Shown in pieces: positions 1-55,058 of a stretch of DNA of 55,058 bases (the stretch's first letter is position 1; each line of letters begins with the position of its first letter). A model generated the notes under the pieces. The model searched no databases. It worked only from the letters and a program-made list of their open reading frames with translations, and was not told the origin of the DNA. The translations under genes and the position numbers were made by a program. Source of the stretch: a virus; the IMG/VR virus record IMGVR_UViG_3300021520_000004, positions 1 to 55,058 of that record, one strand, 5' to 3'.

Positions 1-60
1 AGCCAATTCTTGAAACGTCACATAGGTCATTTCAAAGACCAAAGGTCAAAAATCGAACAC

Positions 61-1629
61 TCACCTGGCCGAGCGAAAACCGATGCCGCCGCCCGCGTGG
101 CCCGCGGAGATGTTCGCGAGAGCTGCTCGCACCCCAGCGAGGGAACTGCCGTCCCAAGCGCCGCCCACAGAGAGGAGAGCTGGAATACCCTCGGTGTATC
201 CACCACTGTCGGGGTTATAGCTCTGGCCCAGGAAGTTGTATGCCTGGTCGCCCTCGTTGTAGCCTGCGCCCGTGCTCCACGAAGTGGCGCCGCCAACCGC
301 GCCGCCCACCCCAGCCCAGCCACCGCGCAGACCCCCGAAGAACTGTCCAACCCATTCCCAGATGTTGCCCACAGCGTCTGATACTCCGGCAGGGGAGTAC
401 CAGGAACGCGCAGTCTTGGTGGCGGTCCATACGGCAGTGCGTGGCCCAGTGCCACACAGAGTCCGCCCTGCTTGTGTCGGGTCGGCCGTCCCCTGTTGCG
501 AGCCCGTGGTATTCCAGCCGGGTTCTACCGTCGCGCTCAGTGTGGCGTCGGCGGTGTTATCCGTGTAGACGACGGTGGTGTTGTCCGCCAGAGCCGCCGT
601 ACCCGCGACGTGCAGATAGTAGGTGCTGCCGCCGACCTTGGTTCGGTAGAGCTTGCGAGCCGTGGTGCCCGCCGCACCAGTGGGGATACCGGAGAGAGCT
701 ATCTGGCCGTTCGTAGTGTAGTCCGCCACCGTGGTCCCGGCGTTGTCCGCGCCGCCGGTGGTTTCGCCGGTGGCGTTGACCAGCGTGACCTTGTACTTGT
801 ACACCCCGTTGCCCAGAACGCCCGCTCCCGCACCAGCGAGCGCGGAGGTCAACGCGGCGGGAGGTGCGAGATAGGTGGTCGTATCGTCATCGCTCGATCC
901 GTAGGCCGTGTTGCCGTTCATCCGAGCCGGCGTGATGCTGCCGGGGTTCCACTCCGCGCAGCCCAGCCATTCCTCCCAGGTAGGCATACGACAGCCCACA
1001 TTTCTGAGTGCGGCCATGGCGTCCCAGCCCTGAACCGTGTGCCAGGGCACGACACCGTAGCGACTGGTGGGGTAGGCGGAGGTTCCCACGGCCGATGCGG
1101 TCGCGTCCTCGTGGCTGGCAAGGTAGATGCCGATGGCGAGTGCGCCGATCTTCACCATGCCCGGAAGCGGTATACCTGGAGCAAGCTCGGGATGGGCGCG
1201 GTAGGGAGCGGCCATGTTCAGCAGGTCGTTGGAAGTGATCGAGTACTGGAAGATGGCCCCGTCGGCGCCGCCACCCACCACGTCCTTGCCGTTGTGGAAG
1301 TAGCCGAGCAGACGGCTATTGGTCAGCGTGTAGCCTGACGGCAGCAGTCCATCTCCAGCATGGGCCGTAGCGATGAGGGTCAGCTTCGGACCGTCCGGCG
1401 TGGCGAACACGGCGTAGTCCTTGCCCTGCGCGCGCGCCCCAGTGTCGAGGATGGAGAACGTGTAGGTGGTAGTCGCAGCCAGGCTCCAATAGGAGCCCCC
1501 AGTGAACTGCACCGCGCCTGGAGCGATGGAGAACGAATCATCGTCCACCCAGCCGAGCCGCAGGCCCTGACGGGCACCCAGAAAGCGACGGAATAGCTCA
1601 CCACGAGAGATGAGGCTCTGTGTTCTCAT
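61..1629 (-). CDS. DGR-type variable receptor-binding protein with FGE/C-type-lectin fold
   Basis: The 522-residue protein has an N-terminal virion-attachment-like part. An FGE-sulfatase-like core follows, with MPTWEEW near residues 215-221 and VGNIWEWV near 418. The core is split by an Ig/FN3-like insert at about 251-370. The last 36 residues (487-522) hold GGAW, an AGV triplet and terminal GIGFRSAR, the layout of DGR variable regions. Positions that are Asn in typical DGR templates are all NNC codons here (GAC, GGC, CTC, AAC, ATC, CAC, GGC), as expected if AAC codons mutate at adenines. The likely role is a tail-tip or surface-binding protein with a hypervariable face. The start has an AGGGGG Shine-Dalgarno. 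The gene lies directly downstream of a probable virion protein. Function is inferred from family resemblance. Confidence 0.75.
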   Translation of the reverse strand: MRTQSLISRGELFRRFLGARQGLRLGWVDDDSFSIAPGAVQFTGGSYWSLAATTTYTFSILDTGARAQGKDYAVFATPDGPKLTLIATAHAGDGLLPSGYTLTNSRLLGYFHNGKDVVGGGADGAIFQYSITSNDLLNMAAPYRAHPELAPGIPLPGMVKIGALAIGIYLASHEDATASAVGTSAYPTSRYGVVPWHTVQGWDAMAALRNVGCRMPTWEEWLGCAEWNPGSITPARMNGNTAYGSSDDDTTTYLAPPAALTSALAGAGAGVLGNGVYKYKVTLVNATGETTGGADNAGTTVADYTTNGQIALSGIPTGAAGTTARKLYRTKVGGSTYYLHVAGTAALADNTTVVYTDNTADATLSATVEPGWNTTGSQQGTADPTQAGRTLCGTGPRTAVWTATKTARSWYSPAGVSDAVGNIWEWVGQFFGGLRGGWAGVGGAVGGATSWSTGAGYNEGDQAYNFLGQSYNPDSGGYTEGIPALLSVGGAWDGSSLAGVRAALANISAGHAGGGIGFRSAR

Positions 1630-1632
1630 CGC

Positions 1633-2502
1633 CTAGGCCCCCTTGGTCTGCGAGCAATGGATTGTGGCCGAAGTGGCTCCCGTGCGGATGAACTTGGCAG
1701 CGACGGCCAGTGCCTTGCTCCAGGTGCCCCAGTCCCCGGCCTCCAGAATGTGCCCATCGGTGGCCGTAGGCGCGGAGCCGTCGAAGGTCACCCGGACTTG
1801 AGCAGTCTGCACATCGAGTATGACGTGGGTCGTGTCCGCATGGAAGGCGGCGAATTGCACCCCACCTGCCGTGGCGTCCACGGTGAGGGCCTGATCGGCC
1901 TGGGTGGAGTTGGGGACGAGGTTGGTGGGGTTGAGCGGAACGGTGACGGCCCTCATGGCCGGATTCTGTTCCATGTAGCTGATCTCTTTGAGCACCTGCA
2001 TGGCGGTCACGGGCGTGGTGTCGGTAGCCGTGCTCTTCGCATCTGCCTTAGCTCCGAGGGTCACATCGGCCCCATCGGAGATTGCGCCAGGAACAGCCGT
2101 ACCACCGGATATGCCCTCCACGATGACCGAACGCGCGCCGGCGCCCAGCGGCAACTCTTTGTACTGCGGCGTTCCATCGTTCGACTTGCCGCCGACAATG
2201 TTGATCTTGCTGGGGGCGGTGGTGCCTTGCGCGACCAGACAGTCGTCGATGATCTGAACCGCCGTCTTGATGTCGCTGGCACTGGCTTCGGTGACCGTGC
2301 CCGTCGTGGTAACGGCCCCAGTAATAGGTACCGCCGACGCCCGCAACTGCGTGTCGGTCAACGGGTTGGCCGCCATGGCCCCCGCCAGTTGAGCGATGTC
2401 GGCGTCGGAGAGATCCACCGTCACCTTTCCGCCCGCGACGGTATTGGCGATGTCGCTCAGGTACCCCATGATCGTTCGGAGCATGGTCTGTGGCGAAATC
2501 AT
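1633..2502 (-). CDS. Putative virion accessory or fibre protein
   Basis: This is a 289-residue protein of unknown family. Its start is fixed by an AAGGAG Shine-Dalgarno and a 4-base ATGA overlap with the preceding small-terminase-like gene; the frame stays open upstream, but that stretch is antisense-like noise. The N-terminus is helical, the middle is rich in Thr, Val, Ala and Gly (GGKSNDGTPQYKELPLG), and the C-terminus is beta-rich and ends in ATIHCSQTKGA. Low-complexity Thr/Val/Gly sequence next to a receptor-binding protein fits a structural or adaptor role. I recognise no catalytic motif. Confidence 0.6.
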   Translation of the reverse strand: MISPQTMLRTIMGYLSDIANTVAGGKVTVDLSDADIAQLAGAMAANPLTDTQLRASAVPITGAVTTTGTVTEASASDIKTAVQIIDDCLVAQGTTAPSKINIVGGKSNDGTPQYKELPLGAGARSVIVEGISGGTAVPGAISDGADVTLGAKADAKSTATDTTPVTAMQVLKEISYMEQNPAMRAVTVPLNPTNLVPNSTQADQALTVDATAGGVQFAAFHADTTHVILDVQTAQVRVTFDGSAPTATDGHILEAGDWGTWSKALAVAAKFIRTGATSATIHCSQTKGA

Positions 2503-3023
2503 GGTTTTACTCCTTCCATTTCGGGCGCGAAGGCCTTGAGGCCCTCGATCGAACCGGTGCGGATCGCTTCTTCGTCGCCGTTGATGAGGGCGTCTTCCTC
2601 GCCGGCGGCCAGCAGTTGCTCCATCTCGTCGCCAGTGACGGCCTGACCGCGCGAGAGGGCACCCACGCCGCCCCAGGCCGCGGCCTGCTCCCCGATGACC
2701 TTGACGGCCCCCACGAGCTCGCGGACGGTGGCAGTGCCGAGCTTCAGGGACAGAAGGCGCAGCCCCTCGAAGACGATGGGGATGGCGGCGTCCACGAGGT
2801 TCTTGCGCTGCTCCTCCTGGATGCGGTCCCACTCCTCACCCGAGAGAAGGTGTCGCCACTTGGTGACAGTGTTCTCAGAACAGCCCACGAGTTGGGCGAT
2901 CTCGGGCCGAGGTCGGCCGGCGGCGCAGAGCAGGGAGATCTGGACGCGCTGTTCTGGGGTGAGGCTATGCCCCGTCTCCTGTTTTGATGGCACTCTTCGT
3001 ACAAACTCCTTCACGGGCATCAT
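2499..3023 (-). CDS. Second small-terminase-like HTH protein (TerS paralogue)
   Basis: The 174-residue protein has an N-terminal HTH of small-terminase type (LTPEQRVQISLLCAAGRPRP, then EIAQLVGCSENTVTKW, about residues 20-55) and a helical C-terminus. Its tail (GVGAL, LLAAG, GSIEGLKAF) matches the tail of the gene just upstream of the large terminase at the right end of the window (GVGAM, ILAAA, GSMEGLKAF), so the two are paralogues. The start follows AGAAGGGGGTGA and abuts the previous stop. It lies about 52 kb from terL, an unusual place for a small terminase. A 42-bp patch encoding GEEDALINGD is shared with the capsid gene. It could be a packaging variant or a repurposed DNA-binding protein. 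Confidence 0.7.
   Translation of the reverse strand: MMPVKEFVRRVPSKQETGHSLTPEQRVQISLLCAAGRPRPEIAQLVGCSENTVTKWRHLLSGEEWDRIQEEQRKNLVDAAIPIVFEGLRLLSLKLGTATVRELVGAVKVIGEQAAAWGGVGALSRGQAVTGDEMEQLLAAGEEDALINGDEEAIRTGSIEGLKAFAPEMEGVKP
2572..2613 (-). repeat. 42-bp patch shared with the capsid gene (copy 1)
   Basis: This segment matches 49126-49167 at 41 of 42 positions, with 33 consecutive identical bases, in the same orientation and reading frame. Here it encodes AAGEEDALINGDE inside the small-terminase-like gene. Confidence 0.9.
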
Positions 3024-48533: not shown

Positions 48534-49931
48534 TTACGAGCCGACGGTGATGGTGTTCGGCACGTCGTAGGCGTAGACCACGACGGGTTCCGTGGACGGG
48601 TAGCGGGACTGGAAGTCCTCGCGCATGCTCGCCACGACCTCGTCCGAACCGGCGACGATGTCGCGGAAGGACTCGATCATGGGAGAGCGCTTGCGACCGA
48701 GCACGAAGCCGTTGGTGTTGAGCAGGACGATGCCGGTCTTGGTCTTGGTGGAGTTGTCGTACACGCCGCTCGCGTTCATGTCTTCACGCAGGTAGCCGGT
48801 GGGGATGACGGGAGTACCGTCGAACCGGCCCAATTCCCCGGTGACCACGGTCGCGTTCGGGCCGTATTTCTCCATGGTGATGACCTCGTCGAGGCCCAGC
48901 ATGTGGATCAGTCCGACCGGGGACACGAGATAGGCGAGGCGCCGCACGGAGACGGCGTACTTGCCCATCATGCTGCGCAGGTAGCGCAGACCTTCGGTGG
49001 TCGGGGTACCCATGTCGTAGGTGTCCGACCCGTCCCGGGCGATCTTGCGCAGACCGTCCCAGGCACTGCGGACGTCGGCAGCGGCCGAGGGGCCGGTGAT
49101 GTCCGAGTCCATGTGGGTGCCGTTGTCGTCGCCGTTGATGAGGGCGTCTTCCTCGCCGTCGGCCAGCGCCTGGGCCAGGTCCTGGCGGATGAACGGCAGC
49201 ATGGCGATGATGGCGTCTTCCTCCACCTCGTAGGCCACCGTGCTGTAGGCCGCGATGGTATGGCAGGACAGCGTGATGTCGTCAGTCGTGGACTCCGACT
49301 GAGTCGGGTTGGACAGACGGCCCTTCAGGTACGCGCGGGCCCGAGCGGTCTGCGCCGGGATCTTGAACGGATCGTTGGGCATGGTCACGATGGTGAAGAG
49401 AGCCGCGACCTGGCGCTCAAGCTCGAACTTCATGATGAGGTCCGGGCTGTAGCCGGTGGGAATCCACTCGGAACCGGTGCCGGACCCGCCAACGTAGGAC
49501 GCCTTCACACCTTCGGCCGCCAGTATCTGCTGGATCTCGGCGTAGCTCTTGGTGGCGCGGATGTCGAAGCGAGCGTCCATGCGTTTCACGAACCGCATGA
49601 TCTCGAGGACATCCTGGAGTTCGAACAGACGCTTCAGGTTCTCGTCCTTGGTCACCAGGGACGGCAGTTGGAGCTTGCGCTCGAACGCCATCTTCTTCGT
49701 CTCGACGGAACCTTCCACGTCGAAAGCGCGCTTCAGCATCGGGGCTTCGTCGATGCGACGGACCGCGTCGGATACCTTGGCCACGTCATCGGCGATCCGC
49801 AGTAGCTTCTCCTGCACATCGCCGGGGGCGCCTTCCTTGAACTGGGCCTTGGCTTCCTGGACCGCCGTGGTCAGCGTCGCAACGCCTCCCGCGAGTTCGG
49901 CCATCGCGTCTTTCAGTTCTTCTTGCAACAT
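48534..49931 (-). CDS. Major capsid protein, HK97 fold
   Basis: The 465-residue protein has an N-terminal helical delta-type segment (about 1-90), removed by the protease in this family. The HK97 core follows (YSTVAYEVEEDAIIAMLPFI, LADGEEDALINGDDNGT, LAYLVSPVGLIHMLGLDEVI, GRFDGTPVIPTGYL, GFVLGRKRSPMIESF). Its ribosome site AGGAGGTG is strong. A terminator lies just upstream, between protease and capsid genes. The stretch encoding GEEDALINGD is nearly identical at DNA level to part of the distant small-terminase-like gene. Confidence 0.9.
   Translation of the reverse strand: MLQEELKDAMAELAGGVATLTTAVQEAKAQFKEGAPGDVQEKLLRIADDVAKVSDAVRRIDEAPMLKRAFDVEGSVETKKMAFERKLQLPSLVTKDENLKRLFELQDVLEIMRFVKRMDARFDIRATKSYAEIQQILAAEGVKASYVGGSGTGSEWIPTGYSPDLIMKFELERQVAALFTIVTMPNDPFKIPAQTARARAYLKGRLSNPTQSESTTDDITLSCHTIAAYSTVAYEVEEDAIIAMLPFIRQDLAQALADGEEDALINGDDNGTHMDSDITGPSAAADVRSAWDGLRKIARDGSDTYDMGTPTTEGLRYLRSMMGKYAVSVRRLAYLVSPVGLIHMLGLDEVITMEKYGPNATVVTGELGRFDGTPVIPTGYLREDMNASGVYDNSTKTKTGIVLLNTNGFVLGRKRSPMIESFRDIVAGSDEVVASMREDFQSRYPSTEPVVVYAYDVPNTITVGS
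49126..49167 (-). repeat. 42-bp patch shared with the small-terminase-like gene (copy 2)
   Basis: This matches 2572-2613 at 41 of 42 positions in the same frame. GEEDALINGD-like loops are normal in HK97 capsid proteins, so this is probably the donor copy. Confidence 0.9.
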
Positions 49932-54896: not shown

Positions 54897-54903
54897 TCCG
54901 GCG

Positions 54904-55058
54904 TCATACCTTCACGAAGGCTTTGAGCCCTTCCATGGAGCCGCTGCGCAGAGCTTCTTCGATGGCCTCCTGACGGCGCCGGGCTTCAGCGGCCGCGAGG
55001 ATGCTCTCAAGCTCACCCTCGCCCCGGCCCGCCCCGGCTGCCATGGCACCCACGCCAC
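54904..55058 (-). CDS. terS: Terminase small subunit, C-terminal part (cut by window edge)
   Basis: About 50 residues are visible (GVGAMAAGAGRGEGELESIL, AAAEARRRQEAIEEAL, RSGSMEGLKAFVKV). The end matches the intact small-terminase-like protein at 2.5-3.0 kb, including GSxEGLKAF. Its position before terL is the canonical one, so this is the likely packaging subunit. The N-terminal HTH lies beyond the window. Confidence 0.8.
   Translation of the reverse strand, partial: GVGAMAAGAGRGEGELESILAAAEARRRQEAIEEALRSGSMEGLKAFVKV

Follow-up and report, generated by a model that had tools for sequence, protein, structure and literature searches.

The window analyzed here comprises an entire linear virus record (55,058 bases). 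Its left end quite probably carries a phage diversity-generating retroelement (DGR) of which only the left portion is included. Bases 1-1629 of the minus strand would thus belong to a cassette that is intact in cis, with the layout Mtd-type target gene with variable region (VR), accessory gene avd, template repeat (TR) and reverse transcriptase (RT). The likeliest location of the template and the RT is just outside the window, beyond base 1. Most likely the contig ends inside the cassette, because the peptide MTYVTFQELA is encoded at the place of an avd start and scores well above any other start-codon 10-mer of the window. We infer that this phage has the intact remainder of avd, a TR and an RT, and that the cassette is active; the weights that we give below to an intact, a lost and a trans-acting cassette are judgements. 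Coordinates of the features are given in Table 1.

Table 1. Features of the putative DGR at the left edge of the window and of the cassette of ortholog L017
Feature	Location	Coordinates	Strand	Basis
avd, first 10 codons (MTYVTFQELA), cut by contig end	window	1..30	-	place and sequence similarity to avd of L017 and L018
spacer, target stop to avd	window	31..60	-	similar to spacers of L017 and L011; no BPP-1-like hairpin
predicted VR	window	66..184	-	extent as in L017, where TR and VR match over 119 bp; codons opposite AAY in the orthologs' TRs are taken as variable
DGR target gene, Mtd-family virion/tail protein, 522 aa	window	61..1629	-	mtd_2nd, phrog_11262, family profile, orthologs L011, L017 and L018
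avd	L017	6493-6861		bAvd 7.6e-15 (Pfam); NF033474 1.2e-17, under that model's cut-off
RT	L017	7131-8192		PF00078, phrog_1423, YMDD motif

The product of the leftmost gene, with the C-terminus GGAWDGSSLAGVRAALANISAGHAGGGIGFRSAR, matched two Pfam models, that of the second Mtd domain (mtd_2nd) with 6.5e-8, which passes the curated cut-off, and FGE just under its cut-off; in PHROGs it fell into phrog_11262 (1.4e-7), a family that also includes the Mtd protein of BPP-1. A family profile made of this protein and 11 relatives matched six solved Mtd sequences over nearly full length, VR included, with E-values from 6e-34 to 7e-32. The same profile matched structure 5vf4 (1.2e-5), listed just as ‘uncharacterized protein’, which we take to be the DGR variable protein of Thermus aquaticus. 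Judged by sequence, the gene product belongs to the Mtd family (phrog_11262 / PF21916) and appears to be related to Mtd, the receptor-binding protein of Bordetella phage; its C-terminal VR is predicted to lie in a C-type-lectin fold, since the family profile runs through the VR at 6e-34. The structure predicted from 12 sequences was of too low quality for use. The first-pass annotation had read the left edge as a DGR target with an FGE/C-type-lectin fold, and this reading is borne out by the Mtd profile, by the Pfam and PHROGs matches and by orthologs with cassettes.

With a two-sequence alignment we recovered three full-length orthologs of the target protein, L011 (64% identity), L017 (55%) and L018 (53%), the first of them from a Chloroflexi genome bin. 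L017 has target, avd, TR and RT in this order, all in cis. L018 has target, avd (bAvd by Pfam), TR and then an apparent RT start, where its contig stops. The TR is located ∼400 bp beyond the target stop in both. Their translated TRs, GGNWNNGANAGVRAANANNSPGNANTNIGFRLAN for L017 and GGNWNNGSNAGVRAANANNSPGNANTNIGFRLAN for L018, align without gaps to the C-terminus of the window protein and have Asn at 10 of the 11 tested positions, the eleventh being Ile. Both TRs have AAY codons exactly at the variable positions of the window, and their single AAT codon aligns with the single NNT codon of the window. In a wider set, 34 related targets had 1.5 kb or more of downstream sequence; an RT was present on the same strand in 23 of them and absent from the sequenced flank in 11; these targets were gathered by target similarity, they are not independent and some are possibly cellular FGE proteins.

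The variation itself is of the kind made by adenine-specific mutagenesis. Compared with its own TR, the VR of L017 has mismatches at 10 of 22 adenines and at none of the 74 other sites; for L018 the counts are 11 of 22 and 1 of 74. Taking the orthologs' TRs as the reference, we saw that the window VR differs at TR-adenine columns: 15 of 22 against 20 of 74 other columns in comparison with L011 (p=6e-4), and 16 of 22 against 19 of 74 in comparison with L017 (p=1e-4). The first-pass annotation had asked for a check of A-biased variation among related phages; such variation is present, with the differences concentrated at TR-A columns across orthologs. In a comparison of all four orthologous VRs, position 1 varies in 10/10 of the AAY-derived codons, position 2 in 9/10 and position 3 in 0/10, while the other 24 codons vary at these positions in 7, 3 and 18 cases; the pattern of the AAY codons is the reverse of ordinary codon evolution. 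For the window against L011, no case as extreme was seen in 200,000 random samples of ten codons or in 466 slid copies of the spacing pattern. In the positive controls (BPP-1, vir525 and YPCBV-1) TR/VR mismatches within the matched stretch occurred at TR adenines only. Such comparisons of sequences support the conclusion that the VR of the target has been rewritten by a DGR.

The place of the VR had been given correctly at 61-171 by the first-pass annotation, though by homology to L017 its extent is slightly larger (∼66-184). The annotation had also described the variable positions as all NNC; where the BPP-1 TR encodes Asn or Ile (11 positions), NNC occurs ten times in the window and NNT once. 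NNC occurred at 6 of 18 neighbouring codons (Fisher p=0.003 against the 11 variable positions), and the probability of 10 NNC among 11, given the amino acids and the codon usage of the phage, was ∼0.04. Correct as it is for ten positions, the codon argument is weak by itself. The Mtd genes of Synechococcus phages S-CBS1 and S-CBS3 and of Marinomonas phage P12026 have the same pattern in genomes without RT; NNC codons are thus compatible with earlier as well as ongoing diversification, and they do not prove an adjoining RT. We rejected the pattern as sufficient proof of a DGR for the same reason. The three genes (loci L007, L005 and L006, respectively), with the signature present and RT absent from the genome, are possible frozen DGR targets.

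An avd start at bases 30..1 of the minus strand had escaped the first-pass annotation. At the corresponding place past the target stop L017 encodes MAYKTFQELT and L018 MAYKKFQELA, and the noncoding spacer ahead of it is also similar; the window differs from both in codons 2 and 4 (MTYV instead of MAYK). The similarity score of the window decapeptide was 34, while the best of the other start-codon 10-mers in the window (among 4,147) scored 20; among 38,781 10-mers from all loci a score of 34 was reached only by the avd starts of L017 (seen twice) and L018. By place and sequence, then, the first ten codons of the accessory gene appear to be present. The most similar ortholog shows what a broken cassette looks like: in L011 (6522-6604) the spacer and eight avd codons (MAYQKFQE) are kept downstream of the target and are followed by unrelated sequence. 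No RT was found in the 34.5-kb contig of L011, a search of its genome bin for a TR-shaped pattern (≤3 mismatches) returned the VR itself only, and bAvd had no match in the bin, while the same bAvd search detected avd in L017, L018, BPP-1 and YPCBV-1. Judging from the retained segment, L011 appears to carry the deletion scar of a DGR. As this closest ortholog lost everything past the eight avd codons, an intact cassette in the window phage is likely rather than certain.

The absence of RT and template from the window, stated in the first-pass annotation, was confirmed by searches of all 55,058 bases: no RT was found, and no TR either, the window stopping 60 bases past the target stop. Single-protein scans of viral contigs with the target protein and two fragments gave no match, and the missing piece was not detected in any contig by DNA scans with the 3′ end of the VR, with the left flank or with a TR-shaped pattern. 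A scan of viral contigs with the portal gene returned only L001, a 99.98% identical contig that covers the other (right) end; L001 (1-73) extends the right end of the window (55058) by 73 bases and then stops. As to a wrap-around genome, no overlap of these extra 73 bases with the left end was seen on inspection.

These observations bear on whether the DGR is still there. The VR could have been written by a past DGR whose TR and RT were since lost, leaving the binding site frozen. L011, with target, spacer and eight avd codons and neither TR nor RT, is a direct precedent, and the RT-less Mtd genes of S-CBS1, S-CBS3 and P12026 as well as the fraction of related targets with no RT nearby point the same way. 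Yet the avd frame of the window stays open beyond the site at which L011 diverges and on to the end of the contig, and the cassette is kept in two of the three full-length orthologs and in most relatives (23 of 34); we consider loss unlikely. It would mean that this clade readily loses the DGR behind the target, leaving a frozen site and an avd scar, with the window phage as an improbable second case after L011; binding sites would then be made by a DGR that the phage carries for a time and not permanently.

Diversification in trans, by an RT and a TR located elsewhere in the phage or in the host, is to be thought of as well, as DGRs with remote targets exist (PMC8144416) and the phage record is incomplete. 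The avd start is situated directly behind the target, however, where L017 and L018 have it in their cis cassettes too, and the other 55 kb are without RT, which makes this arrangement very unlikely. Finally, an ordinary FGE/C-type-lectin tail protein that never had a DGR could owe its NNC codons to codon bias, and the marginal p-value obtained with amino acids and codon usage taken into account leaves some room for this. Such a history is contradicted by the TR/VR pairs of the orthologs, with cognate TRs at the same place, and also by the inverted codon-position variation and the avd start behind the target; its probability is close to nil. The intact cis cassette remains the reading that we prefer.

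If the cassette works by analogy with BPP-1, a complex of Avd and RT would reverse-transcribe a TR situated beyond base 1 and put random bases into the cDNA wherever the TR has an adenine; this cDNA would replace the 3′-terminal portion of the target gene (∼119 bp), thus altering about ten residues of the ligand site in the C-type-lectin fold of a virion protein. Recognition of the target has been described for BPP-1 (PMC3240598), where the IMH is followed by a hairpin/cruciform structure. Between VR and avd we found no such hairpin in the window, L017 or L018 (no stem longer than 4 bp), while the same search recovered the BPP-1 hairpin with its 8-bp stem; the combination of IMH and hairpin/cruciform, a feature of BPP-1-like phage DGRs and not of all DGRs, is thus missing from the window, and target recognition in these three may differ in detail.

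By analogy with Mtd, the target protein may bind the host surface; receptor binding with tropism switching, as in BPP-1, and hence the label of a ‘host-range-switching phage’ given in the first-pass annotation, would follow from the same analogy. The target gene of L011 is situated inside the head-gene module, with portal upstream and a Mu F gene downstream; that of L017, also in this module, is between the head protease and the major head protein. One would not expect a tail-tip protein to be encoded there, and with these two locations a tail-tip position of the protein is not certain. In the window the target is at the opposite contig end from the head-gene module.

The kind of system is already well known, and the window adds to it a divergent Mtd/DGR lineage, one ortholog of which is in a Chloroflexi genome bin. 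The BPP-1 DGR (mtd, avd, TR, brt; NC_005357) has a target of the same family, with an ungapped match between the VRs (GGAWNGTSLSGSRAAL / GGAWDGSSLAGVRAAL); also similar are the position of avd directly behind the target in the window and the order mtd-like gene, avd, TR, RT in L017. Unlike BPP-1, the window has no match to the N-terminal domain of Mtd, a domain of ∼100 residues is inserted in the lectin part of its target, no hairpin follows the VR, and TR and RT are not seen in the window. In pairwise comparison with three characterized phage targets the best match to the window protein was that of Chromohalobacter phage YPCBV-1 (OP380511; 3e-8 over 142 aa), which has target, Avd, TR and RT in cis; identity is only ∼30%, and the variable positions and VR sequence differ. 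Phages S-CBS1, S-CBS3 and P12026 share the protein family and the NNC signature with the window; they have no TR near the target and no RT in the genome, whereas the window has the avd start behind its target. The related contigs form a natural comparison with and without the cassette, L017 having it and L011 only the scar. In addition, a few avd codons can be enough to read a contig end just past an Mtd-type gene as a cut cassette.

The inserted domain covers residues ∼254-370 of the target (window ∼520-870, minus strand). All three full-length orthologs have it, whereas Mtd and the more distant relatives do not; residues 274-364 are similar (38.5% identity, E 2e-4) to a protein of Thermoanaerobacterium phage THSA-485A.

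Elsewhere in the window we observed, through L001, a 42-bp stretch at 2572-2613 that is 97.6% identical to ∼49126-49167, both copies encoding GEEDALINGD; the first is inside a helix-turn-helix gene (2499-3023), the second inside the major head protein gene (48534-49931). The gene at 2499-3023 and the one at 54897-55058 (continued in L001:1-240) have similar ends, AWGGVGAL...RTGSIEGLKAF and GWGGVGAM...RSGSMEGLKAF, and on this similarity a terminase-small-like gene appears to be present twice, with one copy upstream of the large terminase and the other near the DGR target.
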